Source: Pararhodospirillum photometricum DSM 122
GTDB lineage: Bacteria; Pseudomonadota; Alphaproteobacteria; Rhodospirillales; Rhodospirillaceae
Assembly: GCF_000284415.1 (NCBI RefSeq)
Contig: NC_017059.1
Span: forward strand, 2,996,219 to 3,031,937
Reading direction: 5' to 3'
Length of the DNA stretch: 35,719 nucleotides
The notes under the pieces were generated by a model. That model had not been told where the DNA came from. It saw only the letters and a list, made by a program, of their open reading frames with translations, and ran no database searches. Below are positions 3,058 to 30,046 of this stretch, piece after piece; the first letter of the stretch is position 1; each line of letters opens with the position of its first letter. A program made the translations under genes and the position numbers.

Positions 3058-3090
3058 GGAAGGCGGGGAGGCCCGGCCTCCCCGCCTTCC
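3058..3090. repeat. Palindromic element copy 1 (tsaD 3' end)
   Basis: Perfect 15-bp inverted repeat (arms GGAAGGCGGGGAGGC and GCCTCCCCGCCTTCC) around a 3-base CCG loop, 12 bases after the tsaD stop. It belongs to the dispersed family seen seven more times in this window. Compared with the usual core arms CTGGGGAGGC / GCCTCCCCAG, both arms carry matched changes that keep pairing. It may act as a transcription terminator, though no T-run follows. Confidence 0.85.
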
Positions 3091-3147
3091 CTCCTCTCCC
3101 CCCGTGTGGTCCTTGAGTGCCGAGGAGGAATGCGCCATAACCGCCCC

Positions 3148-4155
3148 ATGAGCGAACCACTCTCCACTTTGGCCGTAATCGGTGGCGGCGCCTGGGGCAC
3201 GGCCCTGGCCCAAACCGCCAGCCGCGCCGGCCGCTCGGTCTGCCTGTGGGCGCGTGAGCCCGAGGTGGCCGAGGCCATCACCACCCGGCACGAAAACCCC
3301 GATTTTCTGCCCGGTGTCCCCTTGGAGCCCGCCATCCGCGCCACCAGCGACCTTGCCCAAGCCCTCGAGGGGGCCGAGGCCGTGCTGGTGGTTTGCCCGG
3401 CCCAGGCCCTGCGCCCCGTTCTGGCCGCCGCCGCCCCCCATTGGCCAAGCGGCGCGCCCATGGTGCTGTGCGCCAAGGGCGTGGAACTGGGCAGCGGCCT
3501 GTTGATGACCGAGGTCGCGCACGAGGTGTTGCCCACCGTGGCCCAGGCCGTGCTCTCGGGCCCGACCTTCGCCAAGGAAGTGGCGCTGGGTCGCCCCACG
3601 GCCGTGACCATCGCCGCCGCCGATCCTGCCTTGGCCGAGCGGCTGGTGAGCGCCCTGGGCACCCGCACCTTCCGCCCCTATGCCGCCAACGATCCCGTTG
3701 GCGCCGAAGTCGGCGGCGCGGTCAAAAACGTTCTGGCCATCGCCTGCGGCGTGGTCGAGGGCCTGGGCCTGGGCGACAATGCCCGCGCCGCCCTCCTGAC
3801 CCGGGGCTTGGCCGAAATCATCCGCCTGGGCCGCGCCCTGGGCGCACGGCCGGAAACCCTGTCGGGCCTCTCGGGCCTGGGCGACCTGATCTTGACCGCG
3901 ACCAGCGCCCAGTCGCGCAACTTCTCGCTCGGCTTTGCGCTGGGCGAGGGCCAGAGTCTGGAGAGCCTGCTCAGTGGTCGGCGCACCGTGGCCGAAGGTG
4001 TCCCCTCGGCCAAGGCCGTGGTCGCCCTGGCCGAACGCCACGGCATCGAAATGCCGATCTGCGCCGCCATCAACAACCTTCTGGCCGGGGCCCACGACGT
4101 GGCCGGCGCCATGGAAGCCCTGCTGTCTCGCCCGCTGCGTGCCGAAACCGACTAA
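3148..4155 (+). CDS. gpsA: NAD(P)-dependent glycerol-3-phosphate dehydrogenase
   Basis: Reduces dihydroxyacetone phosphate to sn-glycerol 3-phosphate for phospholipid synthesis, in the cytoplasm. The 335-residue protein begins with the nucleotide-binding loop [13 protein letters not shown] (residues 9-21). It has LCAKGVE near 107-113, [10 protein letters not shown] near 136-145, the catalytic lysine in [10 protein letters not shown] (Lys193), and the C-terminal helical domain with [11 protein letters not shown]. The start is uncertain. ATG 3148 gives the family's usual N-terminus, but the purine-rich GAGGAGGA at 3122-3129 touches an in-frame ATG at 3130, and a GTG exists at 3106. It follows tsaD after a palindromic element. 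Confidence 0.95.
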
Positions 4156-4362
4156 GGGATCAACCCTGGGCGACGAGACTCGCGTCATCCCTTTCCCGTC
4201 GCCCTTTTACAGCCCCCGCCTGAGAGTGCCGGCGCTCCCTCGCTTTCGACGAGTGGCTAGACCGCCTTCCTTGTGCTAGAGTTATCACTGGAACCACCGC
4301 CGGGATATAAAGTCCCCCGCCGGCGCGGGGCATGGGCCTGCGGACAGCGACCAGGACATTGT

Positions 4363-7263
4363 ATGGTAAAGGTGTTCACGGAACGCACGCTGCCCGCGCT
4401 TCAGGTCCTGGGGATGCTGGGAACCACCTTGATCATTGCCCTTGGTCTTGGCACGTGGTCCATCACCTCTTTTACCGATTATATTGGGCGGACCCTGGAC
4501 GATGTCGAGGCCCAGGCCCACCAGGAGCAGGAGGCCCTGCTGGACCGGCAGGTCAGTTCGCTGCTGGCCCAGCTTGAACAGCAGCGCACCACGGTGGAAG
4601 CGAGCCTCAAAAGCGACCTGCGCGCCCAGACGAGCCAGGCCGTGAGCATCGCCCAAACGGTTCACGACCAGCTCCGGGGAACCCTGCCCGAAGCCAAGGT
4701 CCGCCAGATTGTCCTTGAAAGCCTGCGACCCCTTCGGTTCTCCAGCGGGCGCGGCTATGCGTTTGTCCTGGACCGCACGGGCACCATTTTGCTCCACCCG
4801 GTGGAGCCGGGGCGCGAGGGCGGATCGGGTCTTGACATCCGCGACCCCCAAGGAGGGGTTCCGGTGCGCCAAATCCTCTCTCCCCCGGCCGATGGCTTTG
4901 TCCGCTACCTCTGGACCCCCTCGGGCTGGAGCGAGGCCCGCCACAAGATTTCCCACGTGCGCCCCTTTGCCCCCTACGACTGGCTGATTGGCGTTGGCGA
5001 TACCCTGGAGGCCGTGGACGACGATATCCGCAGCCGGGCCTTGCCCCAGGTCCGCGCCGTGCATTTTGGCACCAGCGGCGCCGTGCTGGTACTGGCGGCG
5101 GAACCCGACCGCGAACTCGCCGCCTTGGCCCCGGGGCTCTCGCCCTCGCGCCTGGATGCGGACGAGGCGTGGCTGCGGCGCCAACCCGGGGGCGAGGCGC
5201 TGATCCAACGGATCCGCTCGGCGCTGGCCTCGGGAGAGCGCTCCCTGACCTTGGATCTGCCCGACCCCTCGGGGCATCCCCCCAGCCCGCGCTTGGTACG
5301 CCTGGGCCTGTTCAAGCCGTGGAACTGGATCTTGGTGGCCAGCATCGACTTGGCCGACGTCACCCGGCTGGTCAACGCCCGGCGCGCGGCCCTGGAACAT
5401 CAGATTGTCGAACACCGCAAGACCCTGGGGGAGGTGATTATCTTTGTGCTGCTCGGAGCGGGGGGCGTGGCGGCCGGAGTCGGGGGCTGGATGAACCGCC
5501 TGTTGACCCGTTACCGCAACGATCTGGAACAACGCAGCGCCGCCCTGGCTGAGAGTGAACGAAAACTGCGCCTCTCGGCCCGGGTGTTCGAGAGTGCCTC
5601 CGACGCCGTGGTCATCACCGATACCCGCAACCTCATCGTTGCCGTCAATCCCTCCTTCACACGCATGACCGGCCATGCGCTCGAAACCTTGCGGGGGCGC
5701 TCGGTGATGCTGCTGGTCTCGGATCGGCATGACATCCGCTTTTTGGCAACACTGCGTCGCACCTTGCGGGAAAACGGCGGCTGGGCCGGCGAGGTGTGGA
5801 TCCGCCGCGCCGATGGCTCCGTGTTCTTGAGCGGCCTCGCCATCACCCTGGCCCGCGAGCCCGATGGCCGGGTCACCCACCACATCGGGACCTTCGCCGA
5901 CATCACCGACCGCAAGGCGGCCGAGGAGCGAATCCGTCAGCTCGCCTATTTTGACCCCCTGACCCAACTCCCCAACCGTCTTTTGCTGCGTTCGCGCCTG
6001 ACCCAGGCGCTGGCGGCGGCCCAGCGCCTGCGGATCAACGGGGCGGTTTTGTTCATCGATCTCGACAACTTCAAAACCCTCAACGACACCCGGGGCCATG
6101 ATATCGGCGACAAGCTGCTGATCGAGGTGGCGCGGCGCCTGCGCGACACGGTGCGCGAGCGCGATCTGGTGGCGCGCCTAGGGGGCGACGAGTTCGTGGT
6201 GATCTTGCCCCACCTCGACCCGGACGGCGCCGAGGCCGCGACCCAGGTCGAGCGGGTGGCGGAAAAAATCCTGAACGCGCTCAACCTCCCGTGCGAGATC
6301 GAAGGAACGAGCCACGTCATCACCCCCAGTATCGGCGCCTGCCTGTTCCCCAATGACAATGATAGCGTGGACACGGTGCTCAAGCACGCCGACACGGCCA
6401 TGTATCAGGCCAAGGCGCGCGGCCGCAACCGACTGAGCTTCTTCGAGCCCGCCATCCAAGACGCCCTGATGCGCCGCTCGCGCCTGGAAGCCGACTTGCG
6501 CGCCGCCGTGACCCGCGAGGAATTTACCCTGTACTACCAGCCGCAGGTGGATCACACGGGGACCTTGGTAGGGGCCGAGGTCCTGGTGCGCTGGAACCAT
6601 CCCCACGCCGGCTTGGTCCCGCCGGGCGAGTTCATCCCGCTGGCCGAGGAAACCAGCCTGATCGGCCCGATCGGCCGGCAGGTGCTGGAGCAGGCCTGCA
6701 GCCGCATCGCGCACTGGAACAGCCTGGGTCTGGGCCAATCCCTGACCATTGCGGTTAACGTCAGCGCGGTTCAATTCCGCGACCCGACCTTTGTCACCCA
6801 GGTGCTTGATCTCCTGTCGCGCCATGGCATTGATCCCAGCCGGCTCAAGCTGGAACTGACGGAGAGCCTGATCCTCGACGACGTGCAAGGCTCGATCGTG
6901 ACCATGAACCGCCTGAAGGCCGAGGGCGTCGGCTTCTCGATGGACGACTTCGGCACCGGCTATTCGTCGCTGTCGTATTTGAAACGGCTGCCGCTGGACC
7001 AACTCAAGATCGACCGCTCGTTCGTCGAGGACGTGACCACCGATCCCAACGACGCGGTGATTGTCCGCACCATCATCGCCATGTCGCGCAGCCTGGGCCT
7101 GGATGTTCTGGCCGAAGGGGTGGAACGCCCCGAACAGCGGGCCTTTCTGGTGGCCAACGGTTGTCAGGTGTTCCAGGGCTATTTGTTCAGCCCGCCGGTC
7201 GATACCAGCACGTTCGAGGCCATGCTGACGGGACGAATCGGCTTTGTTCCCAGCCGCCGCTGA
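4363..7263 (+). CDS. Membrane PAS-GGDEF-EAL protein with periplasmic cache-like sensor
   Basis: A 966-residue cyclic-di-GMP protein. A membrane segment spans about residues 11-36, followed by a long periplasmic part (about 37-355) with a cache-like core (GYAFVLDRTGTILLHP near 131-146; DWLIGVGD near 206-213). A second membrane segment lies at about 357-375, then a PAS domain at about 400-520. The GGDEF domain has an intact active site (607-611) and an inhibitory RxxD site (598-601) five residues before it. The EAL domain (about 705-950) reads EVL at 739-741, but DDFGTGYSSL (861-870), LKIDR (881-885) and AEGVE (917-921) are intact. Cyclase and phosphodiesterase activity both look possible; the ligand is unknown. 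ATG 4363 follows AGGA with 7-base spacing. It is placed between gpsA and yciI, apart from other signalling genes. Confidence 0.92.
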   Translation: MVKVFTERTLPALQVLGMLGTTLIIALGLGTWSITSFTDYIGRTLDDVEAQAHQEQEALLDRQVSSLLAQLEQQRTTVEASLKSDLRAQTSQAVSIAQTVHDQLRGTLPEAKVRQIVLESLRPLRFSSGRGYAFVLDRTGTILLHPVEPGREGGSGLDIRDPQGGVPVRQILSPPADGFVRYLWTPSGWSEARHKISHVRPFAPYDWLIGVGDTLEAVDDDIRSRALPQVRAVHFGTSGAVLVLAAEPDRELAALAPGLSPSRLDADEAWLRRQPGGEALIQRIRSALASGERSLTLDLPDPSGHPPSPRLVRLGLFKPWNWILVASIDLADVTRLVNARRAALEHQIVEHRKTLGEVIIFVLLGAGGVAAGVGGWMNRLLTRYRNDLEQRSAALAESERKLRLSARVFESASDAVVITDTRNLIVAVNPSFTRMTGHALETLRGRSVMLLVSDRHDIRFLATLRRTLRENGGWAGEVWIRRADGSVFLSGLAITLAREPDGRVTHHIGTFADITDRKAAEERIRQLAYFDPLTQLPNRLLLRSRLTQALAAAQRLRINGAVLFIDLDNFKTLNDTRGHDIGDKLLIEVARRLRDTVRERDLVARLGGDEFVVILPHLDPDGAEAATQVERVAEKILNALNLPCEIEGTSHVITPSIGACLFPNDNDSVDTVLKHADTAMYQAKARGRNRLSFFEPAIQDALMRRSRLEADLRAAVTREEFTLYYQPQVDHTGTLVGAEVLVRWNHPHAGLVPPGEFIPLAEETSLIGPIGRQVLEQACSRIAHWNSLGLGQSLTIAVNVSAVQFRDPTFVTQVLDLLSRHGIDPSRLKLELTESLILDDVQGSIVTMNRLKAEGVGFSMDDFGTGYSSLSYLKRLPLDQLKIDRSFVEDVTTDPNDAVIVRTIIAMSRSLGLDVLAEGVERPEQRAFLVANGCQVFQGYLFSPPVDTSTFEAMLTGRIGFVPSRR

Positions 7264-7377
7264 TCGCCCCAGGCTCGCCGTCTCCGCCACGCCTTTTCCT
7301 GGAAGACCCTGAGACAACGACTGTGGCATGGTAGGGCAGGGGGCCCCGTCTGGCCCCGGTCCATGGGAGATCCTTGC

Positions 7378-7677
7378 ATGTTGTTTGCGGTGTATTGCCT
7401 CGACAAACCCGACCACGCCGAGGTCCGGCTCGCCAACCGCGAGGCCCATCTGGCCTATGCGCGGTCGTGGGAAGCCCAGAAAAAAATCGTGTTCGGCGGC
7501 CCCCTGCTGTCCCCCGATGGCTCGGCCATGATCGGCAGCCTGCTGGTGTTCGACGTGGCCGACCAAGCCGAGGCCGAGGCCTTTTGCGCCGGCGATCCCT
7601 ACGGCGTGGCCGGCCTGTTCGCCTCGGTGACGGTCACGCCCTACAAGCTCCTGCTGGGCACCCGCGCCCAGGGTTGA
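7378..7677 (+). CDS. YciI-like protein
   Basis: A 99-residue protein of the YciI/YCII family, a small ferredoxin-like fold of unclear biochemical role. It shows MLFAVYCLDKPDH at the start, NREAHLAYARS with the family's conserved R-x-x-H (about residues 20-25), and GGPLLSPDGSAMIGSLLVFD in the middle, the family core. The ATG at 7378 is preferred to an upstream in-frame ATG at 7363 because the family starts here and GGGAGAT precedes it. It lies 28 bases before the EVE-domain gene, and the two are probably co-transcribed. Confidence 0.88.
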   Translation: MLFAVYCLDKPDHAEVRLANREAHLAYARSWEAQKKIVFGGPLLSPDGSAMIGSLLVFDVADQAEAEAFCAGDPYGVAGLFASVTVTPYKLLLGTRAQG

Positions 7678-7705
7678 CCCGCATCGCCCCAAGGAGATCC
7701 TCGGC

Positions 7706-8131
7706 ATGGCTTACTGGCTGCTGAAGTCCGAGCCCGGCACATGGTCGTGGGATGATCAGGTGGCCAAGGGCACCGAACCCTGGGACGGGGTGCGCAACGC
7801 GCAGGCCCAAGCCAACCTGAAAGCCATGCGCGAGGGGGATCTCGCGTTTTTTTATCACTCGGTGACCGAAAAGCGCATCGTGGGGATCGTCGAAATCGTG
7901 GGACCGTTCAGGGCCGACCCCACCGATCCCAGCGGACGCCATGGGCTGGTCGAGGTCCGGGCGGTCCAGGCCGTGCCCACCCCCATTCCCCTGGCCGCCA
8001 TCAAGGCCGACCCGGCCCTGGCCCATCTGGGACTGGTCCGCCAATCACGCCTCTCGGTAGTGCCCATCGACCCCGAGGCGTGGGAGCGCCTGCGCCGGAT
8101 GGGAGGACTGCCGCCTGCACCCTTCCCGTGA
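7706..8131 (+). CDS. EVE domain-containing protein
   Basis: A 141-residue single EVE domain (PUA-like fold) protein; EVE domains bind modified nucleic-acid bases. The family signatures are all visible: [15 protein letters not shown] (3-17), [16 protein letters not shown] (26-41), GDLAFFYHS (44-52), and GIVEIVGPF near 60. ATG 7706 follows AAGGAGAT (7691-7698) with ideal spacing. It is commonly found beside tsaD, gpsA and yciI in alphaproteobacteria, which fits a housekeeping RNA-related role; the exact target is not known from sequence. Confidence 0.93.
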
Positions 8132-8289
8132 GGCAAGCCCTTCGCCCTCACCACCAAACCCCAGGCGAACGCGACGGGAAGGGTTGTTTTTCGGAACGCC
8201 TGCCCCCAAAGTTCCCGGGCCTGTTTCAACGTCCGGGGCCTGAATCCCGGGCCACATTAAAAACTTTGAACACGTTGGGAGAGTTATCC

Positions 8290-10227
<1,938 letters not shown>

Positions 10228-10233
10228 CCTCCT

Positions 10234-10259
10234 GGGCCTCCGAGTCCCTTCGGAGGCCC
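10234..10259 (+). terminator. Putative acs terminator hairpin
   Basis: Seven bases after the acs stop is a perfect 10-bp stem (GGGCCTCCGA / TCGGAGGCCC) with a 6-base loop, followed by a C/T-rich tract (CTCTCTCTCCTCC) rather than a pure T-run. This structure differs from the dispersed palindrome family. Confidence 0.7.
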
Positions 10260-10296
10260 CTCTCTCTCCTCCTGGCCGCGAGACGGATCCTTCGCC

Positions 10297-11304
10297 ATGA
10301 CCATCCTTGTCACCGGGTCAGCCGGCTTCATCGGCAACCATGTGGCCCTGCGTCTTCTGCAAGCGGGACACCAGGTGGTCGGCGTCGATTGCCATACCCC
10401 CTATTACGATGTCCGTCTCAAGGCGGCGCGCACCGAGCGCCTGCTGGCCTTCCCCCGGTTTCGCGAGGAGCGCATCGACCTCGCCGACGCCGAGGAGACG
10501 GCCCGGGTGTTCGAGGTTTACCGCCCGCGGCGCGTCGTGCATCTCGCGGCCCAAGCTGGGGTCCGCTATAGCCTGGAAAACCCCCGGGCCTATGTGGATT
10601 CCAACCTGATGGGGACCTTTACCGTGCTGGAAGGCTGCCGCTCGGTCGGGGTCGAGCACTTGGTGTTTGCCTCCACCAGTTCGGTCTATGGCGCCAACCG
10701 CGAGCAGCCGTTTAGCGAACACCACGCGGCCGACCATCCCCTGACCTTTTACGCCGCGACCAAGCGGGCCAATGAAATGATGGCCCACTCGTATGCCCAT
10801 ATGTTCAAGCTGCCCTCGACCGCCCTGCGCTTTTTTACCGTGTATGGCCCGTGGGGGCGGCCGGACATGGCCTTGTTCTTGTTTACCGAGGCAATCCTTA
10901 AAGGCGAGCCGATCAAGGTCTTTAACCACGGCGACATGGTGCGCGACTTCACCTACATCGACGATATCGTCGAGGGCATCGTGCGGGTTCTCGACACCCC
11001 CCCGTTGCCGGTCCCGTCGCTGGAGGGCATCCCCGACCCGGCCACCAGCCCGGTGGCGCCGTTTCGCGTCTACAACATCGGCAACAGCCGGCCGGTCACG
11101 TTACTGCGCTATATCGATCTGGTGGAAGAGGCCCTGGGCATGACGGCGCGCAAGACCATGCTGCCCATGCAAATCGGCGATGTGCCCGGCACCTGGGCCG
11201 ATGTCTCCGACCTCTCGAACGACACGGGCTATCAGCCCTCGACGCCGGTTGAGGAGGGGGTGCGGCGGTTCGTGGCGTGGTATCGCGCGTTTTATAAAAA
11301 ATAA
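10297..11304 (+). CDS. NAD-dependent epimerase, UDP-glucuronate 4-epimerase type
   Basis: An extended short-chain dehydrogenase of 335 residues that probably interconverts UDP-glucuronate and UDP-galacturonate for surface polysaccharide. Visible are the NAD loop GSAGFIG (7-13), HLAAQAGVRYS near 82-92, the serine strand STSSVYG (126-132), the catalytic pair in YAATK (Tyr152, Lys156), FFTVYGPWGRPDMA near 178-191, and RDFTYIDDIV near 210. The GVRYSLENP and GPWGRPDMA stretches are typical of the CapI/LspL glucuronate epimerase branch. It is alone between acs and acnA, with no glycosyltransferases nearby, so the polysaccharide it serves is unknown. Confidence 0.87.
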   Translation: MTILVTGSAGFIGNHVALRLLQAGHQVVGVDCHTPYYDVRLKAARTERLLAFPRFREERIDLADAEETARVFEVYRPRRVVHLAAQAGVRYSLENPRAYVDSNLMGTFTVLEGCRSVGVEHLVFASTSSVYGANREQPFSEHHAADHPLTFYAATKRANEMMAHSYAHMFKLPSTALRFFTVYGPWGRPDMALFLFTEAILKGEPIKVFNHGDMVRDFTYIDDIVEGIVRVLDTPPLPVPSLEGIPDPATSPVAPFRVYNIGNSRPVTLLRYIDLVEEALGMTARKTMLPMQIGDVPGTWADVSDLSNDTGYQPSTPVEEGVRRFVAWYRAFYKK

Positions 11305-11312
11305 AAAAGGAA

Positions 11313-11338
11313 GTCTGGGGAGGCTCGCCTCCCCAGAC
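11313..11338. repeat. Palindromic element copy 2 (epimerase/acnA convergent ends)
   Basis: Perfect 12-bp arms GTCTGGGGAGGC / GCCTCCCCAGAC around TC. An A-rich run (AAAAAATAAAAAAGG) lies just before it on the plus strand. Read on the minus strand the hairpin is therefore followed by a T-rich tract and looks like a good intrinsic terminator for acnA. It lies between two convergent gene ends. Confidence 0.88.
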
Positions 11339-11349
11339 CCCTCCGTTCC

Positions 11350-14023
<2,674 letters not shown>

Positions 14024-14125
14024 GGGGGATCTCCTAGAGTTTCCAAGCATGACAAAAGACCCGCCCCAGGGACGGCATCTTCGGATCAAGGCATGGATGG
14101 AGCGCCACCATGACGTCCCGGACGG

Positions 14126-15175: not shown

Positions 15176-17392
<2,217 letters not shown>

Positions 17393-17398
17393 GGGGGC

Positions 17399-17440
17399 AA
17401 GGAAGAGGAAAGGGGGGGGGGAAAGGAAAGAAAAAGAAGG
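17399..17440 (+). repeat. 42-base homopurine tract
   Basis: All bases from 17399 to 17440 on the plus strand are A or G, including a run of ten G at 17412-17421, just after the kinase stop. It leads directly into palindromic element copy 3. Other copies of that element also have an A/G-rich leader, so this is probably an expanded form of the same element. Confidence 0.7.
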
Positions 17441-17476
17441 CTGGGGAGGCGCGGCCTCCCCAGACCCCTCGGTCTG
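17441..17476 (+). repeat. Palindromic element copy 3 (kinase/mazF convergent ends)
   Basis: First hairpin: 10-bp arms CTGGGGAGGC / GCCTCCCCAG around GCG (17441-17463). Second hairpin: CAGACC / GGTCTG around CCTC (17461-17476), sharing its first three bases with the end of the first. The A/G-rich leader lies upstream. It sits between two convergent genes at the left edge of the accessory island. Confidence 0.9.
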
Positions 17477-17485
17477 TTAAGGGAG

Positions 17486-17824
17486 TCAGTCAAAAAGGGG
17501 GGCGAGCCTTGCCAAGACTTCATCCATGAGGTCGGGCGGCAGGGTTTCCACCCAGCGACCGTTGCGGACCGTCAGATCTAGTACGCGGGGCTGGTCACAG
17601 CGAACCAAACCAGTGGTGGTCGTGCCCACAAGAGCCACAGCAAAGCCAAGGCCCCGGGCAAACCCACCTCCATTCGTGATGGGCAAGACAACCGGCAACC
17701 CGGTCGCCTGATTGAAGTCATCGGGCGACACAACAAGAACGGGCCGGTGTCCGCGTTGCTCCCGGCCTTTCGTCGGCTCCAAATCGACCCAATAGATATC
17801 GCCGCGTTTCGGCGTCTGGCTCAT
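17486..17824 (-). CDS. mazF: MazF/PemK-family mRNA interferase toxin
   Basis: A 112-residue type II toxin of the MazF/PemK/ChpB family, a ribosome-independent endoribonuclease that cuts mRNA at short motifs. It shows KRGDIYWVDLEPTKG (6-20) with the family's basic and acidic core, RGHRPVLVVS (24-33), PVVLPITNG near 44-52, and the GLVRCDQPRVLDL stretch. The ATG overlaps the antitoxin stop by 4 bases (ATGA at 17824-17821), so the pair is translationally coupled. Cleavage specificity cannot be read from the sequence. Confidence 0.95.
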   Translation of the reverse strand: MSQTPKRGDIYWVDLEPTKGREQRGHRPVLVVSPDDFNQATGLPVVLPITNGGGFARGLGFAVALVGTTTTGLVRCDQPRVLDLTVRNGRWVETLPPDLMDEVLARLAPLFD

Positions 17825-18078
17825 ATCAGCTCACCGCCAACGGCAGGCGACTCCCCCCATTCCCGATCCTCGGCCGTTTGTGGCTGCGAATAGTCAGAGG
17901 CGGCCAGCAACTCGGCCATGGTGTAACGACGCCGCACCTTTGGCTCAACGACAAGGCGGCCATTCTCGACCGAGAGGCCGACTTTCCCTCCAGCGGATAA
18001 ATTCAGGACATCAAGCAGCGCCGGAGGAACCGCCAGCATCACCGAACCGCCAACTTTACGAAGATTGGTCGTGTGCAT
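17821..18078 (-). CDS. mazE: MazE/PemI-family antitoxin
   Basis: An 85-residue antitoxin. Residues 1-50 (TTNLRKVGGSVMLAVPPALLDVLNL) form an AbrB/MazE swapped-hairpin DNA-binding domain. The acidic C-terminal tail (about 55-85) is the part expected to wrap around and block the toxin. It is first in the operon, as usual for type II systems, and overlaps mazF by 4 bases. ATG 18078 follows GGGAGG. A 12-bp palindrome lies 16 bases upstream and is a likely autoregulatory site. Confidence 0.92.
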   Translation of the reverse strand: MHTTNLRKVGGSVMLAVPPALLDVLNLSAGGKVGLSVENGRLVVEPKVRRRYTMAELLAASDYSQPQTAEDREWGESPAVGGELI

Positions 18079-19852: not shown

Positions 19853-20058
19853 TGAGCGCCTTATGTCACACTGCGCTTTTAATAGTTAGAAAACATGTTA
19901 CCATCGTCCTTTTTGCACCCCTTGCTCATCACATTGATTTTTTGGATAATTTTAGGTCCAAACCGCTCTATGTGAGAGCCAACGTCACAGTCGTGTGTCA
20001 CATGGGGCTAAAAAACAGAGTTCGGCCTTCTCAGATCCGAGTCCTAAAGGGGGGTATC

Positions 20059-20115
20059 ATGACTGATCAGGTCATCGACAAAATTAAGTACGCCCAAACA
20101 GTGAACGCTCGGTGA
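20059..20115 (+). CDS. 18-residue mini-ORF with strong ribosome site
   Basis: ATG 20059 follows AAAGGGGGG at 20046-20054 with 4-base spacing and encodes MTDQVIDKIKYAQTVNAR before TGA. It could be the intact 5' end of a truncated gene, a leader peptide, or chance. Its position at the right end of the accessory island favours a remnant. No function is proposed. Confidence 0.25.
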   Translation: MTDQVIDKIKYAQTVNAR

Positions 20116-20207
20116 ACTGCTGATACCACGGACACGTCCAGGCGCTACACCGACCCACTCAGAAAGCAGCCGCCTTAAACCGTGCTTCGACCAAAGGAAT
20201 GGAGGGG

Positions 20208-20232
20208 TCTGAGGAGGCGAGCCTCCCCGGCC
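20208..20232 (-). repeat. Palindromic element copy 4 (inverted, right edge of island)
   Basis: A slightly imperfect copy: arms GAGGAGGC / GCCTCCCC around GA, with the A/G-rich leader on the minus strand (CTTTCTTTCTCTTTCTT on plus, after the palindrome). The orientation is opposite to copy 3, so the two bracket the 17.4-20.2 kb island as inverted repeats. Confidence 0.8.
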
Positions 20233-20384
20233 TTTCTTTCTCTTTCTTCGGGCTTCTTCACCGGACTTCCCCGGCAACGTACACTCACCAAGAGCGGCTT
20301 TGCACCGCGCACCGATCACCACTATAGCTACTCGCGCTAACTTTTTCAACACAGAGTGGCCAACCCCACAGAGCGGAGCACCCC

Positions 20385-20915: not shown

Positions 20916-20940
20916 CGGGCTTTTTAAGGCCCCGAGAGGT

Positions 20941-20963
20941 CTGGGGAGGCCGCGCCTCCCCAG
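20941..20963 (-). repeat. Palindromic element copy 5 (SRPBCC gene/sdhB convergent ends)
   Basis: Arms CTGGGGAGGC / GCCTCCCCAG around CGC on plus (GCG on minus). The leader AAGAAGGTAAGG and the trailing AGACCTC are on the minus strand, so this copy is inverted. It sits between two convergent gene ends, 17 bases from the sdhB stop. Confidence 0.9.
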
Positions 20964-20980
20964 CCTTACCTTCTTCCAGC

Positions 20981-21763: not shown

Positions 21764-21813
21764 TGAAGCCTCCAGCCTGTATCCGTCGTCTGATCCTTAC
21801 CCGTTCCCGCGCC

Positions 21814-23598: not shown

Positions 23599-23605
23599 CT
23601 TGCGG

Positions 23606-23992
23606 TCAGCCTCCGACGCTGAGCTTGAGGATGGAAACGGTGGCCAGCGCGGCCCCCAAGGCGGCATACAGCTTGGTCGCGAACACCACGACATTACGCG
23701 CCGTATGGTTCTGGACGTAGTCCTCCAGAATCACGATCAGCCCCAGCATGCCATGGTAGAAGGCACAAAGGACGGTCAGCAGCATCAAGGCGGCGTTGAT
23801 GGGCGAGCCCATGAAAGCCACCACCTCGGCGTGAGACGCGCCCAGGTTGGGAATGATCGCCACAAACACAAACCACAGCACCAACGGCACCAGGGCGATG
23901 GCGGGCAGGCGCTCGGCCATCCAGTGCGAGGCGGCGCCTTCCTTGGCGGCACCAAGACCCCGGGCGCGGCCCAGAGACGAACGAAGAGACAT
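23606..23992 (-). CDS. sdhD: Succinate dehydrogenase membrane anchor subunit D
   Basis: A 128-residue membrane anchor with three hydrophobic segments (about 29-50, 62-89 and 101-124) and [17 protein letters not shown], where His80 is the expected haem b ligand and Asp-Tyr (91-92) line the quinone site in this family. It starts at ATG 23992, 14 bases after sdhC, and ends 7 bases before sdhA. The order sdhC-sdhD-sdhA-sdhB is the standard operon. Confidence 0.94.
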
Positions 23993-24006
23993 CACGTTCT
24001 CCCTTG

Positions 24007-24402
24007 TCAGACGGCGGCGAGGCCGGCGATCCACGCCAGCACCGACAGCACCACGGCGGAGCCAATGGCCACGGCTCCGGTCTTGCGCAGCGTGGGCATG
24101 TCGAAGCCGAAGCCCGTGTCCCAGAGCAAGTGACGAAGGCCGTTGGTCAGGTGGTAGAACAAAACCACCGTGAGGCCAAACAGGACCAAATATCCAAACC
24201 AGGAGCCATAGAAGCCCTGGATCGCCGCAAAGGCGCTTTCCCCCATCGCCGCGGCAACGATCCACAGCAGGAAGAAGAACGTGCCCGCCGTCATCAGCAC
24301 CGCGCCGAAGACGCGGAACGTGATGGAGAGCATCGATGTAACCTTGGTGTGCAGCTTGTAAACCTGAAGGTGGGGGGAGAGCGGCCTGGGATGCGTTTTC
24401 AT
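24007..24402 (-). CDS. sdhC: Succinate dehydrogenase cytochrome b556 subunit
   Basis: A 131-residue membrane anchor with the family start RPLSPHLQVYK (6-16), SITFRVFGAVL (26-36), three membrane segments, and YHLTNGLRHLLWD, where His84 is the expected axial haem ligand. ATG 24402 is chosen because homologues begin here; the longer open frame upstream runs through the promoter region. It is the first gene of the operon. Confidence 0.95.
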   Translation of the reverse strand: MKTHPRPLSPHLQVYKLHTKVTSMLSITFRVFGAVLMTAGTFFFLLWIVAAAMGESAFAAIQGFYGSWFGYLVLFGLTVVLFYHLTNGLRHLLWDTGFGFDMPTLRKTGAVAIGSAVVLSVLAWIAGLAAV

Positions 24403-24508
24403 GGCGTCAGCCTCGTGCGCGGGTCGGCTGGGGCAAAAGGAGACACGACCCGACCCGGGGCCCCATGGGGCCGCCGAGACCATGCCTCCCTTTTCGGCAA
24501 TGCGGGTT

Positions 24509-24537
24509 TGCATACCGGTTCCGTGGGGTCAAGTCAA
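24509..24537 (-). promoter_or_regulatory. Putative sdhCDAB promoter
   Basis: On the minus strand TTGACT (24537-24532) is separated by exactly 17 bases from TATGCA (24514-24509), about 107 bases before the sdhC ATG. This fits a sigma-70-type promoter with a good -35 and a moderate -10. The leader between them is otherwise unremarkable. Confidence 0.4.
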
Positions 24538-24618
24538 CGCGACTCCCGCCTTCTCGTTGACACGTTCTGGTCACATTCGCGAATAAAACTCGTTCTCAAA
24601 AAAGAACCAAGGGGAAGA

Positions 24619-24653
24619 CTGGGGAGGCGGGCCTCCCCAGGCCCCTCGGCCTG
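24619..24653 (+). repeat. Palindromic element copy 6 (M32 peptidase 3' end)
   Basis: First hairpin arms CTGGGGAGGC / GCCTCCCCAG around GG (24619-24640); second hairpin CAGGCC / GGCCTG around CCTC (24638-24653). Compared with copy 3 (CAGACC / GGTCTG) the second hairpin has an A-T pair replaced by G-C on both arms, a compensatory change. It lies just past the carboxypeptidase stop. Confidence 0.9.
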
Positions 24654-24665
24654 TTGGGGGAGAGC

Positions 24666-26186
24666 TTACGCTTCGTCCAGATAGCGGCGGCGCAGGTGGG
24701 CCTTGAAAACGGCGGCATCAAGGGGCCGGCCGGTCGCTTCGGTCAGCAGGGCGTCGGTGGACAGCACGCTGGCGCGGGCGTGAACCATGCGGCGCAGCCA
24801 GTCGAGCAGCGGCCGACCATCGCCCTCGGCCAGGGCGGCGGGAATGCCGGGCTCGGCCTCCTGGGCAGCACTGAAGAGTTGGGCCGCCGTCATGGCTCCC
24901 AGGGTGTAGGTGGGGAAGTAACCCCAGGCGCCGTCGTACCAGTGGATGTCTTGCAAGCAGCCCCGGCGATCGTCGGGCGGACGCACACCGAGCAGGCGCT
25001 CCATCAGATCCCCCCAGGCCCCCGGCAGATCGGCCACGGCGAGGTCACCGGCGATCAGGGCCCGTTCCAAGCGGGTGCGCACGATAACATGGGCGGGGTA
25101 GGTGACCTCGTCGGCCTCGACCCGAATGAAGCCGCGCTCGACCCGGGTCACCGCCCGACGCACCGCATCGACCTCCCAGGCCGGGCCGCTCCGGCCAAAA
25201 TGGGCGCGCCACAGCGGCACGGCGTGGGCCAGCCAAGCCCGCGAGCGGCCCACCTGCATTTCCCACAACAGGGATTGGCTTTCGTGCATACTCATGCCCC
25301 GAGCCCGGCCCACCGGCTGGGTCCGCCACGCCTCGGGCAGGCCCTGCTCATAGAGGGCATGGCCGGTTTCATGGATCACGCCGAACAGGGCCGAGAGGAA
25401 ATCTTCTTCGTCGTAGCGGGTGGTCAGGCGCACGTCGCCCGGGGTGCCGCCGCAAAACGGATGCGTCGAGACATCCAAGCGCCCATGGCGGAAGTCGAAG
25501 CCCATCTGGGCCATGGTCGCGCGCCCCAGGGATTCTTGAAGGGCGCGGGGGAACGGACCCTGGGGCCGGGGCGGCGCCCCCACCCGGGCCTGATGGGCCA
25601 GCACCTCGTCGAGGAAGGCAGGCAGGAAGGTTTCCAGGTCGGCAAACAGCGCGTCGATGCGCGCGATGGAGCCGCCCGGCTCGTATTCATCAAGCAAGGC
25701 ATCGTACAGGCCGGTTCCCAGGGCCGCCGCCTTGGCCTCGGCGCTTTGGCGCACCAACCCCAAGAGGGTTTCGAGGGCGGGTTGGACCGCCTTGAAGTCC
25801 GAGTCCTGCCGGGCGCCGCGCCAAATCGCCTCGCAGGTGCTCGACGCGTGCGACAGGGCCTCGACCAGAGCGCGGGGCAAGGCCGTGGCGTGGGCGTGGC
25901 GCCGACGGATCTCGGCGAGGTTGGCCTGATGCCACACGGCATCCGGCACGCCCTCCCACGCGGCGGCCTCGGCGGCGGCCAACAGGTCGGGCAGGTCGGG
26001 CGCGGTCAGCAGCTCGTGATGCAGGCCACTCAACACGGCAAGCTGGGTGGCGCGCTCGGGGGCGGCGCCCTCGGGCATCATGGCCGCCCGGTCCCACTGC
26101 AAGATGGACAGGGCATCCTCCAGGGCCGAGAGACGACCAAAACGCTCCAGCAAGGCGGCGGCGGCCGGCGGGATCGGGCTTGGCAT
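24666..26186 (-). CDS. M32-family carboxypeptidase (carboxypeptidase Taq type)
   Basis: A 506-residue zinc carboxypeptidase that removes C-terminal amino acids from peptides in the cytoplasm. The zinc site HETGH is at 272-276 and the third ligand Glu302 lies in MHESQS. Other M32 signatures visible are STHPFC (240-245), DVRLTTRY (251-258), IRVEADEVTYPAH and CLQDIHW. Length and all motifs match the family. It is divergent from elbB across 76 bases. The dispersed palindrome after its stop separates it from the sdh operon on the same strand. Confidence 0.94.
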   Translation of the reverse strand: MPSPIPPAAAALLERFGRLSALEDALSILQWDRAAMMPEGAAPERATQLAVLSGLHHELLTAPDLPDLLAAAEAAAWEGVPDAVWHQANLAEIRRRHAHATALPRALVEALSHASSTCEAIWRGARQDSDFKAVQPALETLLGLVRQSAEAKAAALGTGLYDALLDEYEPGGSIARIDALFADLETFLPAFLDEVLAHQARVGAPPRPQGPFPRALQESLGRATMAQMGFDFRHGRLDVSTHPFCGGTPGDVRLTTRYDEEDFLSALFGVIHETGHALYEQGLPEAWRTQPVGRARGMSMHESQSLLWEMQVGRSRAWLAHAVPLWRAHFGRSGPAWEVDAVRRAVTRVERGFIRVEADEVTYPAHVIVRTRLERALIAGDLAVADLPGAWGDLMERLLGVRPPDDRRGCLQDIHWYDGAWGYFPTYTLGAMTAAQLFSAAQEAEPGIPAALAEGDGRPLLDWLRRMVHARASVLSTDALLTEATGRPLDAAVFKAHLRRRYLDEA

Positions 26187-26262
26187 GGGCGAGGGTTCCC
26201 CGTATCAGCAAAAGGAAAGGAAACGCGAGCGGCGCGTGTCCTTACTATGAGGAGGAGCCCCC

Positions 26263-26928
26263 ATGACAGACAAGCCCCGCTTTGCCGTGGTTCTTTCCGG
26301 CTGCGGCGTCTTCGATGGCGCTGAAATCCATGAGAGCGTCCTGACCTTGCTCGCCATCGACCGGGTGGGCGCGGTGGCACAGTGCTTCGCCCCCGACATT
26401 CCCCAGGCCCATGTGGTCGATCACCGCACCGGCGCGGTGGTCGAGGAAAGCCGCAACGTGCTCACCGAAGCGGCCCGCATTGCGCGCGGCTCGATCGCCG
26501 ATCTGGCGACCTTCGATCCCCAAGCCTTCGATGTTTTGATTTTCCCAGGCGGCTTCGGTGCGGCCAAAAACCTGAGCCGCTTTGCCTTCGACGGCCCGGC
26601 CTGCACGGTGGATCCCTCGGTGGAACAGGCCATCAAACAGGCCCACGCCGCCGGCCTGCCGATCGGCGCTTTGTGCATTGCCCCGGCGGTGATCGCCCGG
26701 GTGCTGGGTAAGGGCACCTTGACCATCGGCACCGATGCCGACACCGCCAAGGCTCTGGAGCGCCTGGGGGCCACCCATCAGGGTACGGCGCCGACCGAGA
26801 TCGTTATCGACCGCGCCAACAAGATCGTGACCACCCCGTGCTACATGCTGGCCACCCGCATTTCCCAGGTGGCCGAGGGGGCCGAGGCCACGGTGCGGGC
26901 CCTCCTGACCCTGCGCGAGACGCCTTAA
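26263..26928 (+). CDS. elbB: ElbB-type isoprenoid biosynthesis glyoxalase
   Basis: A 221-residue DJ-1/PfpI-superfamily protein of the ElbB group, linked to isoprenoid synthesis and reported to have weak glyoxalase activity. Visible are VVLSGCGVFDGAEIHESV (9-26), which is diagnostic for ElbB, the nucleophile-elbow region LCIAPAVI with its cysteine near residue 145, DVLIFPGGFGAAKNL (about 90-104) and TTPCYML near the C-terminus. ATG 26263 follows GAGGAGGA. It is a single gene, converging on secB across a palindromic element. Confidence 0.93.
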   Translation: MTDKPRFAVVLSGCGVFDGAEIHESVLTLLAIDRVGAVAQCFAPDIPQAHVVDHRTGAVVEESRNVLTEAARIARGSIADLATFDPQAFDVLIFPGGFGAAKNLSRFAFDGPACTVDPSVEQAIKQAHAAGLPIGALCIAPAVIARVLGKGTLTIGTDADTAKALERLGATHQGTAPTEIVIDRANKIVTTPCYMLATRISQVAEGAEATVRALLTLRETP

Positions 26929-26936
26929 GGCAAAGG

Positions 26937-26971
26937 CTGGGGAGGCGCGGCCTCCCCAGACCCCACGGTCT
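26937..26971 (+). repeat. Palindromic element copy 7 (elbB/secB convergent ends)
   Basis: First hairpin arms CTGGGGAGGC / GCCTCCCCAG around GCG (26937-26959); second hairpin AGACC / GGTCT around CCAC (26958-26971). The last base pair runs into the secB stop codon (26970-26972), so the element touches coding sequence. Confidence 0.9.
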
Positions 26972-27428
26972 AGGCGTTCCCCGCCTCGGCCATGTAGCGC
27001 TGGCGATACAGCGCCGTGAAGTCGAGTGGCTGGATCATCAGGGGCGGGAAGCCGCCGTCGCGGGTGGCATCGGACAAGATGCCCCGGGCAAACGGGAACA
27101 GCAGCCGCGGCACCTCGATCAGCAGCATCGGGCGCAGGTGCTCCTCGGGCAGGGTGAGGGTAACAACCGCGCCGTACTTCAGTTCGGCCACGAAGGCGAC
27201 CAGATCGGGAAAACGGCTTTCGACCTGGAAATGCAGCACCACCTCAAAGGCTTTTTCGCCCACCGAGGTGGCATTGACATCAATATTGATCGACACCTCG
27301 GGGGTCTTGTCGAGGCGGGTGAAGATCATGGGAGCGTTGGGGACCTCGAAGGACAGGTCCTTGATATACTGGCCGTTGATGATCAGCGGCGGGGTATCGG
27401 CACCGCTGGCTTGGGGATCCTGGCTCAT
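26970..27428 (-). CDS. secB: Protein-export chaperone SecB
   Basis: A 152-residue tetrameric cytoplasmic chaperone that holds preproteins unfolded and hands them to SecA. Signatures are NGQYIKDLSFEVPNAP (18-33), INIDVNA, EVVLHFQV, LLIEVPRLLFPFAR and ILSDATRDGGFPPLMIQPLDF, all typical. It is transcribed on the minus strand after fxsA, with a 73-base gap. Its stop codon is part of a palindromic element. Confidence 0.96.
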   Translation of the reverse strand: MSQDPQASGADTPPLIINGQYIKDLSFEVPNAPMIFTRLDKTPEVSINIDVNATSVGEKAFEVVLHFQVESRFPDLVAFVAELKYGAVVTLTLPEEHLRPMLLIEVPRLLFPFARGILSDATRDGGFPPLMIQPLDFTALYRQRYMAEAGNA

Positions 27429-27501
27429 GAAGTCCTATCCTGACTGGAGCAAAGCGACCGCCGAGGCGGCCCGCCAGAGGTAGCACGCACCGAAGCGGCT
27501 C

Positions 27502-28008
27502 TCAACGGTCGGCCTTGGGGGGCTGGTCAGCGGGACGCGCCCACGGGTTTTCTTCCTTGCCGACCCCGCCCGCCGTGACGTCGAGGTACTCGGCGTCGAT
27601 CACCTGGGGCTGGGATGCGGTCGGACTGGCCGGACCGGCGGGGGTCATGAACATCCCCTGGTGTCCCTCCAGCCACTGGCGCAAAACGGCCCGCACCGGG
27701 GGCAACAGCAGCAAGATGCCCCAGATGTCGGTGAAAAATCCGGGAACCAGCAACAAAATGCCGCCGATGAGGATACAGGCCCCGTCAAACAGCTCCTGAA
27801 CCGGCAAAATGCCGGCATTGACGCTCTCGCGCGCTTTTTCAAGGGTGCTCACCCCCTGATGGCGCACCAGCATCGTCCCGGCAACCGCGGTGAGGAGGGT
27901 CAGCGCCACGGTGGGCACCACGCCGATGGCGCTGCCCACCTTGATGAACAGACTGATCTCAATCACCGGGACGCCCACGAAGATCAGGAAGAGAACCAGA
28001 AATGCCAT
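27502..28008 (-). CDS. fxsA: FxsA-family membrane protein
   Basis: A 168-residue inner-membrane protein of the FxsA family (named for suppression of F exclusion of phage T7). It has hydrophobic segments at about 2-20, 25-42 and 68-98, with VPVIEISLFIKVG, GTMLVRHQG and GGILLLVPGFFTDIWGILLLLPPVR, which are the family's hallmarks. The tail is polar and low in complexity. ATG 28008 follows AAAGGA; an upstream in-frame ATG (28029) adds seven residues and is less likely. It precedes secB on the same strand, a common alphaproteobacterial order. Confidence 0.92.
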   Translation of the reverse strand: MAFLVLFLIFVGVPVIEISLFIKVGSAIGVVPTVALTLLTAVAGTMLVRHQGVSTLEKARESVNAGILPVQELFDGACILIGGILLLVPGFFTDIWGILLLLPPVRAVLRQWLEGHQGMFMTPAGPASPTASQPQVIDAEYLDVTAGGVGKEENPWARPADQPPKADR

Positions 28009-28204
28009 GGCTTGCCGTCCTTTGCCCACGATCCCATGTTAGAGTCCATCCCGGGGACCATAGCATCGGCCCTTGCCCGTGCAACCAAGAACCCGTCCGG
28101 GAGGCGCCAACGATCTCTCTCGCAAACGGCGAAGAGCGGTGGTACGCGACGCTCACATGGGGTAGGGTTCCCCGATCGGCAAAAAAAACCGGCCCAGGGC
28201 GGAC

Positions 28205-28867
28205 ATGAACGACGGTCTTCAGTATATCGACATCATCTTTATCGCCATGGTTGCTGCGTTCTTGGTTTTGCGTCTGCGCAGCGTCTTGGGACGGCGCACA
28301 GGCGACGAGCGCAAGCGTCCCAATCCTTTAACCCCTGGGGAAGACGTTGGCGACAACGTGGTGGCCCTTCCCGGGCGCGCCCCCCTCCAGGCTGCGGGAA
28401 CCCCGGGCTCGGTGGCGGGCGGACTGGCCCGCCTGCGCCTTGCGGATCCATCCTTTTCGCCCGACGCCTTCTTGCAAGGCGCGCGCTCGGCGTTTCAGAT
28501 GATCCTCATGGCTTATGCCAAGGGCGACCGCGACACCTTGAAACCCCTCCTCTCCCCCGAGGTGTTTCGCAACTTCTCCGGGGCCATTGAGGCCCGGGAA
28601 AAGGCCGGCGAAACCATGGAAACCGATCTGCTGTCCTTCAAGGACGTGGATTTCACCGCCGTCGATGTGCGCGACCGGGATGCCTATATCAGCGTGCGGT
28701 TCGTGACCGAGCAGGTCAACACCGTGCGCGATCCGGCCGATGCCGTGGTCGAGGGCAACCCCAACCACATCGAGGTGGTCACGGACGTCTGGACCTTCTG
28801 CCGGACCATCGGATCCGCCGATCCCAACTGGGAACTGGTGGCGACCCAGGTGCCGGAGGAGGCGTGA
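28205..28867 (+). CDS. Tim44-like domain protein
   Basis: A 220-residue protein with one N-terminal membrane segment (about 7-25, IIFIAMVAAFLVLRL) and a C-terminal Tim44-like domain (about 85-215). That domain shows FLQGARSAFQMILMAYAKGD, LSPEVFRNF and EVVTDVWTFCRT. It is the bacterial relative (TimA) of the mitochondrial import motor subunit; the role in bacteria is little defined but membrane-associated. It is divergent from fxsA, and its stop overlaps the GTG start of mltA by 4 bases (GTGA), so the two are translationally coupled. Confidence 0.9.
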   Translation: MNDGLQYIDIIFIAMVAAFLVLRLRSVLGRRTGDERKRPNPLTPGEDVGDNVVALPGRAPLQAAGTPGSVAGGLARLRLADPSFSPDAFLQGARSAFQMILMAYAKGDRDTLKPLLSPEVFRNFSGAIEAREKAGETMETDLLSFKDVDFTAVDVRDRDAYISVRFVTEQVNTVRDPADAVVEGNPNHIEVVTDVWTFCRTIGSADPNWELVATQVPEEA

Positions 28868-30012
28868 GCGTGTCCCAACAGGCATGCGTCGTCCGGCGTG
28901 CCGCCCGGCTCGGCGCCGTGGGGCTGACCTTGGCGCTGGCCGCCTGCGCCGCCCAGGGGCCCACCCGCTCCCAAGGCGATGGCCGGGTGCATTACCAGCC
29001 CGCAAGCTTCGAGACCCTGCCCGGCTGGGCCGACGACCAGCCGCGCGAGGCCACCACGGCCTTGCTGCGCTCGTGTGCCCGGTTGCGAACCTTGCCGGCG
29101 TCGAGCCCCGTGGGGCCGGCGGTGCTGGGCAGCCGCGCTGGGGATTGGGGACCGCCCTGTGCGGCCTTGGAGCAAGCCTCGCGCACCGGCACCGTGCGCG
29201 AGGCGCTGGTCCGCTCCTTTCAGCCCTGGCAGGTCATTGGTCCCGACGGACCCGAAGGCCTGTTCACGGGCTATTATGAGGCGACCCTTGACGTCTCGTT
29301 CACGCCAAGCGCTGTATACGCGACCCCGGTCTATGGCCAGCCCCCCGGCTGGACCGAAACCTCGGGCGTGACCCGCCCCGATCGGGCGGCGATCGAGGAC
29401 GGCGCCTTGGCAGGGATCGCCCCGGTTTTGATGTGGGCCCGCGATCCGGTGGATGTTTTCTTTTTGCACATCCAGGGCTCGGGGGTGGCGCGGCTGCCCG
29501 ATGGCCGGTCCCAGCGCATTGGCTTCGCCGGCTCCAACGGCCATCCCTTTGTCGGGATCGGCGCCTTGATGCGCAAGCGGGGCCTGGGCGACGGTTCCTC
29601 CATGACCGCCATCCGCACGTGGCTGCGGGCTAATCCCGCCGAGGGCCGCGCCCTGATGCGGGAAAACCCACGCTACATTTTCTTTAGAACCGTCGAAGGC
29701 GAGGGGCCGATCGGCGCGCAGGGGGTGGCGCTGAGTGCCGGGCGTAGCCTCGCCGTCGATCGGGATCACATTCCCCTGGGGGCCCCGGTGTGGGTCGCGA
29801 CCTCCGACGCCCAGGGCCGGACGGTGGCCCGCCTGATGGTCGCCCAGGATACCGGCGCGGCCATCAAGGGCGCCGTGCGCGGTGATGTGTTCTGGGGGAC
29901 TGGCGAGGAGGCCTTGGTGCATGCCGGGGGCATGCGCTCGCCGGGGTTCTTGTGGGTCCTGTTGCCAAGGGGAGCGGTTGTGGCCCAAAGCGCATCAGGG
30001 ACGCAGGGCTGA
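28864..30012 (+). CDS. mltA: Membrane-bound lytic murein transglycosylase A
   Basis: A 382-residue lipoprotein that cleaves peptidoglycan glycan strands to 1,6-anhydro ends in the periplasm. The N-terminal signal ends in a lipobox LAAC (Cys28). The MltA domain follows with LFTGYYEATLDVS near 135-147, FFLHIQGSGVARL near 200-212, and GFAGSNGHPF. The C-terminal 3D barrel has DRDHIPLGAPVWV and AQDTGAAIKGAVRGDVFWG, containing the catalytic aspartate region. The start is GTG, overlapping the Tim44-like stop. Confidence 0.94.
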   Translation: MSVSQQACVVRRAARLGAVGLTLALAACAAQGPTRSQGDGRVHYQPASFETLPGWADDQPREATTALLRSCARLRTLPASSPVGPAVLGSRAGDWGPPCAALEQASRTGTVREALVRSFQPWQVIGPDGPEGLFTGYYEATLDVSFTPSAVYATPVYGQPPGWTETSGVTRPDRAAIEDGALAGIAPVLMWARDPVDVFFLHIQGSGVARLPDGRSQRIGFAGSNGHPFVGIGALMRKRGLGDGSSMTAIRTWLRANPAEGRALMRENPRYIFFRTVEGEGPIGAQGVALSAGRSLAVDRDHIPLGAPVWVATSDAQGRTVARLMVAQDTGAAIKGAVRGDVFWGTGEEALVHAGGMRSPGFLWVLLPRGAVVAQSASGTQG

Positions 30013-30023
30013 AGGCTTGAAGG

Positions 30024-30046
30024 CTGGGGAGGCGCGGCCTCCCCAG
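30024..30046 (+). repeat. Palindromic element copy 8 (mltA 3' end)
   Basis: Arms CTGGGGAGGC / GCCTCCCCAG around GCG, 11 bases after the mltA stop, followed by AGACCCCTCCC but without the second hairpin seen in copies 3, 6 and 7. It separates mltA from the lut genes on the same strand. Confidence 0.9.

Follow-up and report, generated by a model that had tools for sequence, protein, structure and literature searches.

The window analysed here, a 35,719-nt stretch of the genome of Pararhodospirillum photometricum DSM 122 (contig NC_017059.1, positions 2,996,219 to 3,031,937), carries copies of a palindromic hairpin at the ends of its genes, and the question is what kind of element this is and what it does there. 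A preliminary description, made from the sequence of the window alone, had listed eight copies and compared them with repetitive extragenic palindromic (REP) and bacterial interspersed mosaic elements or with a lineage-specific bidirectional terminator. We found that the element is an abundant REP-type repeat without a detectable REP-associated tyrosine transposase (RAYT), and that its foot is of a type undescribed in the literature searched. We consider it probable, at roughly 60%, that such a repeat has been exapted as an orientation-tolerant 3' end of transcripts; in this reading the mobility of the element, its role in termination and its protection of mRNA are deduced from sequence. The copy number, asymmetry, placement, doublets, differences in conservation and lack of RAYT matches from which the reading starts are direct observations.

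Copy number and anatomy of the element

The genome, a single contig of 3,876,289 bases, contains 564 exact cores of the form CTGGGGAGGC-N1-5-GCCTCCCCAG, and the control search with the reversed pattern found none; the element is indeed a genome-wide one. The copies were analysed in two samples of equal density, the first comprising 41 stretches (836 kb, window included) and the second 40 further stretches. In these 1,635,719 bases, 396 hairpin copies were detected, which corresponds to about 940 in the genome if the density is even; the set consists of hairpins with up to three arm mismatches, plus three with four mismatches but at least nine pairs. In the first sample, 104 copies were exact and 43, 32 and 13 had one, two and three arm mismatches, respectively, against 0, 0, 0 and 2 in the reversed sequence.

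The element is asymmetric and can be written as GAGGGGT-CTGGGGAGGC-n2-3-GCCTCCCCAG-CCTTcccTTTTT. In the canonical order, given by position-matrix orientation in 192 of 194 copies, a C-rich start and an AGGAACC-like part precede GAGGGGT and the 10-bp stem, the loop of which is mostly 2-3 bases; then come CCTT, pyrimidines and a T-rich tract that reaches about +13, the main T-tract starting about 8 nt 3' of the stem. A single copy is about 54 bp in length. The GAGGGG(T) foot is unpaired, and its GGGG occupies positions -5 to -2 in 321 of 391 copies. The copies are balanced between the chromosomal strands (198 plus, 193 minus, 5 unassigned). The A/G-rich leader reported in the preliminary description is present, but it is the T-rich tail read in reverse, since the canonical strand is the minus strand in five of the seven clear members in the window. 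The statement that T-runs are mostly missing likewise depends on the strand: the canonical strand has CCTT and a T-rich tract after the hairpin, and the window copies hold 2 to 8 T among the ten positions from +5 to +14.

The arms are conserved mainly as sequence and not as structure alone. In 194 sampled copies, 16 positions were altered on both sides of the stem (14 of them still Watson-Crick) versus 122 on one side only, and a 70-row alignment contained three cells altered on both sides. Conservation of structure only was rejected because one-sided changes far exceed two-sided ones; the matched arm changes from which selection on structure had been proposed are outnumbered by differences that break or weaken pairing. 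The second hairpin, previously drawn in copies 3 and 6, was also rejected as a family feature, since a stem of at least 6 is possible in 13.8% of 391 copies and in 14.1% after swapping of the upstream parts, and its six pairs showed no clear covariation (at least 46 of 500 shuffles reached the observed value).

A covariance model was built from 70 sequences, among them the window copies at 17427 and 20190. Seven window copies, including these two, matched it over the full length with E values from 1.7e-14 to 5.4e-9. The copy at 3058 was absent among the best 300 of 329 matches; it has GGGGAGGC/GCCTCCCC in common with the family but differs at 4 of 20 arm positions, and its orientation could not be assigned. 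There are hairpins at all eight sites of the preliminary description, then, but seven are clear members of the family and copy 1 is only a look-alike. An Rfam search of the window gave no match at gathering scores; when the search was relaxed for 17380-17540, 24 weak matches appeared, the best with E 0.1, and none came close to its gathering score. Four 15-16-base strings of the element did not occur in the literature searched, nor did any paper there combine palindrom-, repeat and Pararhodospirillum.

Placement at gene ends, singles and doublets

Genes were called by a simple codon-model gene finder, which predicted 1,397 genes but fuses some neighbours and sets start codons roughly. By these calls, 205 of the 396 copies lie in tandem, 117 in convergent and 49 in divergent gaps, 19 "inside" predicted genes and 6 at sample edges. 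Eleven of the 19 start within 80 nt of a gene 3' end, five others have three or four arm mismatches, and one is near a predicted start. The remaining two (L262 and L287) are exact, mid-gene and flanked by matches to two unrelated Pfam domains; their hosts are most likely two genes that the gene finder read as one. Random placement inside genes, which would have spoken against the preliminary description, was not observed.

The element occupies 106 of 182 convergent, 36 of 181 divergent and 180 of 953 tandem gaps; the 396 tandem gaps of less than 40 nt, hardly long enough to hold it, are all without one. Copies in convergent gaps lie at a median of 12 nt from the nearest stop codon; in tandem gaps, the median is 18 nt for copies in opposite orientation to the genes and 26 nt for those in the same orientation. 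Convergent gaps with an element have a median length of 58 nt against 97.5 nt for those without, so the element fills nearly the whole of an occupied gap. Among convergent gaps of 20-400 nt in the first sample, another hairpin was found in 3 of the 57 that are occupied versus 6 of the 22 that are not (p 0.012).

Forty-eight pairs of copies lie less than 250 nt apart, 38 with the feet inward and the tails outward, 8 in the reverse arrangement and 2 in the same direction. The spacer of 17 close pairs is 54-56 nt, and a recurrent spacer sequence was found in both orientations. Inverted doublets number 18 in tandem, 13 in divergent and 7 in convergent gaps, compared with 158, 23 and 97 singles, respectively (16 inside and 6 edge copies excluded). 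The divergent-to-convergent ratio differs between the two forms (p 6.7e-5): singles favour 3' ends and doublets appear not to. Relative to gaps of at least 40 nt, inverted doublets amount to 7 per 182 convergent, 13 per 181 divergent and 18 per 557 tandem gaps, numbers that are small. Exact copies make up 73% of doublet members (gap of at most 70 nt, n=74), 58% of convergent singles (n=95), 47% of tandem singles (n=156) and 36% of divergent singles (n=22); the mean number of arm mismatches is 0.42 in doublet members against 0.84 in the 273 singles taken together (p 5e-4). Bertels and Rainey (2011, PMC3116915), in the part of that paper used here, describe doublets of REP sequences (REPINs) as better conserved and take singlets as remnants. 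The contrast between doublets and singles in P. photometricum looks like this REPIN pattern.

The same placement could be produced by a terminator consensus that does not move at all but was copied to gene ends through gene conversion and selection, the doublets being back-to-back terminators. Copies that follow stop codons, the occupancy of convergent gaps, the rarity of other hairpins in those that bear an element, and a conservation of singles that declines from convergent over tandem to divergent gaps all agree with this explanation. On the other hand, the orientation of the element in tandem gaps is unbiased (see below), the spacer sequence of the doublets recurs in both orientations, doublets are common in divergent gaps, and the conservation gradient reaches only p 0.068. 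We regard the explanation as possible but clearly less probable than an exapted repeat.

Transposases, relatives and known repeat families

In the genome of P. photometricum, the Pfam model PF01797 (Y1_Tnp) gave no match and the REP transposase model NF047646 gave a best E value of 0.57, under its cut-off, although positive controls worked in both searches. The RAYT-type transposase which the preliminary description had proposed to look for was not detected, and a RAYT-driven REPIN was rejected on this ground. Y1_Tnp was present in 12 of 37 genomes (P. photometricum included), none of which is among the three with exact cores, namely P. photometricum, Pararhodospirillum oryzae and Roseospirillum parvum. 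Six relatives in all have covariance-model matches, among them P. oryzae with 16 and the genomes G018, G012, G008 and G014 with 18, 14, 2 and 2, respectively. Among 13 genomes from other carriers, a match was obtained in 2, one of them barely above the cut-off.

P. oryzae, the sole genome of the same genus among 60 relatives, contains 6 exact cores. Fifty-seven syntenic gaps were compared between the two species, with the gene finder retrained on P. oryzae, and 9 of them hold an element in P. photometricum. Of 57 convergent gaps of 20-400 nt sampled in P. oryzae, 25 had a hairpin; three of these hairpins had the present core, in a sample enriched for it, and the others were of different sequences. 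As judged from predicted hairpins, no other hairpin is as common as the element at the gene ends of P. photometricum, whereas P. oryzae has many different hairpins there. R. parvum has 35 exact cores, and most of those read lie inside a longer multi-hairpin repeat. This composite repeat, seen at many sites (L091-L110), includes the hairpins CAAAGGGGC, CTGGGGAGGCC, a long AAAACCCC and CCAAGGGGGC besides the present core.

The element with foot and tail had no match in a genome collection, which possibly does not include P. photometricum itself. The core alone was found in at least 118 stretches of this collection, of which the 80 listed were sorted into 27 organism groups, not all of them independent and with R. 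parvum and P. oryzae among them. A GGGG run flanks the core on one side in 71 of 90 cores, on both sides in none, and occurs in 21 of the 27 groups, against a background rate of about 1.5%. The carriers include Roseomonas, Pseudoroseomonas, Rhodovarius, Litoreibacter, Maritimibacter and a metagenome-assembled genome of Desulfovibrionaceae, and 14 of 17 genomes tried had GGGGT-tagged cores, with up to 32 copies. Since the core was found in P. photometricum only among 385 genomes of the class, and in three of 73 of the family, the motif is scattered. In Roseomonas sp. GC11 (L190, L211, L147, L200), the same hairpin forms short arrays of 2-3 with a spacing of 38-40 bases.

Compared with the REP/REPIN system as presented in the part of PMC3116915 that we used, the element is likewise a short hairpin repeat with hundreds of intergenic copies, inverted doublets of preferred spacing, and doublets that are more conserved and apparently less position-bound than singlets. 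It differs in that the genome has no RAYT match, three quarters of the copies are singles, and the foot is GGGG(T) and not GTAG, which was found at the hairpin foot in 1 of 391 copies; moreover, the singles look functional at gene ends and would not be mere remnants. The CGTC REPs of alphaproteobacteria, according to the portion of Di Nocera et al. (2013, PMC3733652) available to us, are similar in being mostly head-to-head dimers without an associated transposase and in having copies in convergent gaps near both stop codons. The present stem, however, has 10 bp and begins with CT, where theirs has 8-9 bp from A-T pairs; its loop is of 2-3 nt and not 4-5; and the CGTC tag is nearly absent, CGTC or GACG lying within 8 nt of a foot in 7 of 391 copies. 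That portion also gives Acetobacteraceae as lacking CGTC repeats, whereas the present hairpin does occur in this family. The main text of the RepRanger paper (PMC12306157), as far as it was available, contains no words starting with rhodospirill-, photometricum or roseomonas.

A further candidate is a structural DNA element. The order GAGGGG-TCT-GGGGAG-n-CTCCCC could potentially form a class I intrastrand triplex that would act in replication or recombination, and the placement at gene ends would be a by-product. GAGGGG of the foot is the mirror image of GGGGAG in the purine arm, which gives the class I order as defined in Holder et al. (2015, PMC4666352), a paper which, in the sections used here, names Rhodospirillum photometricum DSM 122 as motif-rich, among the genomes in which triplex motifs exceed 500 and are nearly always G/C. 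The base opposite the stem A in the 71 cores with a GGGG foot from other taxa is A in 44, T in 21, C in 6 and G in none, and 17 of 21 organism groups have only A or T there, the bases that a class I triplex allows; 16 of the 21 T bases come from R. parvum alone. In P. photometricum itself, this base is A in 313, G in 32, T in 17 and C in 15 of 377 copies. Yet the genome has 14 stem-variant copies, too few to show whether foot and stem covary, the conserved bases are explicable by shared ancestry, and about 77% of the motifs in genomes of this kind are built on 7-nt stems and possibly due to chance, as stated in the same sections of Holder et al. The BoxC repeat, or TM-ECO, treated there has a comparable G/C-rich purine-motif triplex potential but is of the pyrimidine-purine-purine order (class II), the canonical strand of the present element being purine-purine-pyrimidine (class I); the paper reports no regulatory trend for the location of TM-ECO, and the present element lies strongly at 3' ends. 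Structure alone leaves this placement unexplained, and we consider the triplex an improbable explanation of the element as a whole.

In Neisseria and Haemophilus, inverted pairs of DNA uptake sequences double as terminators, and inverted 10-mer pairs at gene ends are superficially similar to the present element. Single arms outside elements numbered 11 in 836 kb, compared with a mean of 6.2 (standard deviation 6.7) for 146 permuted 10-mers. The usual form of uptake sequence, with many single copies in genes, is ruled out because single arms are not enriched, and we give an uptake function in general hardly any credence.

Proposed function and the copies in the window

The preferred reading remains that of a repeat without RAYT put to use at gene ends. 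Such an element would have spread, without a RAYT in the present genome, as an inverted doublet of two hairpins with GGGG feet inward, T-rich tails outward and often a 54-56-nt spacer, much like a REPIN. Singles that came to lie just 3' of stop codons would have been kept as transcript 3' ends. The strong hairpin may stop RNA polymerase where the T-rich tract comes next; in the other orientation it may at least block 3'-to-5' decay, perhaps following Rho-dependent termination, and in this way one copy could serve two convergent genes. Tandem singles that face downstream have 5.38 T in the ten positions from +5 to +14 (n=69) versus 4.66 (n=87) in the opposite orientation (p 0.0048), and convergent singles have 5.12 (p 0.066 against the opposite tandem singles).

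Several observations weigh against this reading. Relative to tandem genes, the element shows no preferred orientation (93 same, 110 opposite, p 0.26), and opposite tandem singles have no extra hairpins (14 of 76 versus 12 of 62, in gaps up to 400 nt). Taken separately, the first sample gives p 0.011 for the T-tract effect and the second p 0.11, and the comparison for convergent singles was not replicated, being 5.46 versus 4.33 in the first and 4.66 versus 4.96 in the second. No neighbour was found within 250 nt of 300 of the 396 copies, so singles dominate, unlike in the REPINs of Pseudomonas fluorescens, and the difference in conservation between convergent and divergent singles reaches only p 0.068. 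The relative G018, with its 18 model matches, carries Y1_Tnp copies. In all 9 of the shared gaps that bear an element, P. oryzae lacks it (best match with at least 5 mismatches), and the aligned blocks of the two species are 70-81% identical, too diverged to reveal empty sites.

Because the orientation is unbiased and no extra hairpins accompany the opposite singles, termination at the T-tract is not the whole function. We infer that the hairpin matters in either orientation and that the T-tract adds to its effect, formation of 3' ends being the likeliest use on the sequence evidence. Like intrinsic (Rho-independent) terminators, the element combines a G/C hairpin with a T-rich tract on one strand 3' of stop codons; it differs from them in that one sequence is common genome-wide, the T-tract begins about 8 nt past the stem, and the orientation in tandem gaps is unbiased. 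The lineage-specific bidirectional terminator of the preliminary description fits the placement and the contrast with the sister species, but the unbiased tandem orientation speaks against an ordinary one-way terminator. The likeness to REP elements and to gene 3' ends has been supported, with copies throughout the genome, almost none within genes, placement at 3' ends and inverted doublets.

The window copies are given in Table 1. As described previously, the hairpins lie near stop codons (7 of 8 at 8-25 nt) and often between convergent genes (four of the eight, with three in tandem gaps and one, at 20209, in a divergent gap, by gene calls), and copies 4 and 5 run opposite to the remaining copies with an assigned orientation.

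Table 1. Hairpin copies in the window, with canonical strand and adjoining genes
Copy	Extent	Core	Strand	Type and context
1	3058..3090	3063-3085, GCGGGGAGGCCCGGCCTCCCCGC	none	Look-alike hairpin; flanked by tandem genes for TsaD and Gly3P dehydrogenase
2	11301..11355	11315-11336	-	Full element; NAD epimerase-family gene (+) / aconitase (-); stops at 10 and 13 nt
3	17427..17482	17441-17463	-	Full element; histidine kinase gene (+) / PemK/MazF-like gene (-)
4	20190..20244	20209-20230	+	Full element; divergent gap by gene calls; no called stop codon adjoining
5	20922..20977	20941-20963	+	Full element; unnamed open reading frame (+) / succinate dehydrogenase iron-sulphur-type gene (-)
6	24605..24659	24619-24640	-	Full element; 25 nt 3' of M32 carboxypeptidase stop (-), ahead of sdh genes (-)
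7	26923..26978	26937-26959	-	Full element; ElbB-like gene (+) / SecB (-); stops at 8 and 10 nt
8	30010..30065	30024-30046	-	Full element; 11 nt 3' of MltA-type gene stop (+); canonical strand opposes gene

Three other features of the window were observed. The aconitase gene next to copy 2 (11350-14089, minus strand) is in two overlapping frames, which match Pfam Aconitase positions 7-270 and 272-463 plus the C-terminal domain; the split resembles a frameshift or a sequencing error, and scattered N bases also occur in the sampled stretches. At 17486-18078 (minus strand), the PemK/MazF-like toxin gene next to copy 3 adjoins a MazE-like antitoxin gene, and a RecT-family gene close to the window end (34631-35572, minus strand) is a possible trace of a prophage.

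More tentatively, and with doubt outweighing support, the element may belong to a third tagged class of REP, with a one-sided GGGG(T) foot beside the CTGGGGAGGC hairpin and without a RAYT of its own, in Acetobacteraceae, Rhodospirillaceae, Rhodobacteraceae and other groups; in one lineage it would have taken over as the standard 3'-end signal, displacing the diverse hairpins seen in the sister species, and its foot would act through an intrastrand triplex.

If the exaptation of a RAYT-less repeat is true, mobile hairpins of a single family have remodelled the 3' ends of many genes throughout the genome in one lineage, a clear example of how repeats can turn into general signals for gene ends. 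The difference from P. oryzae, together with the two forms of the element, doublets apparently free in position and singles bound to 3' ends, makes the old question of whether REP sequences are parasites or functional directly testable. It also raises the question of what mobilises REP-type repeats in bacteria without RAYTs.

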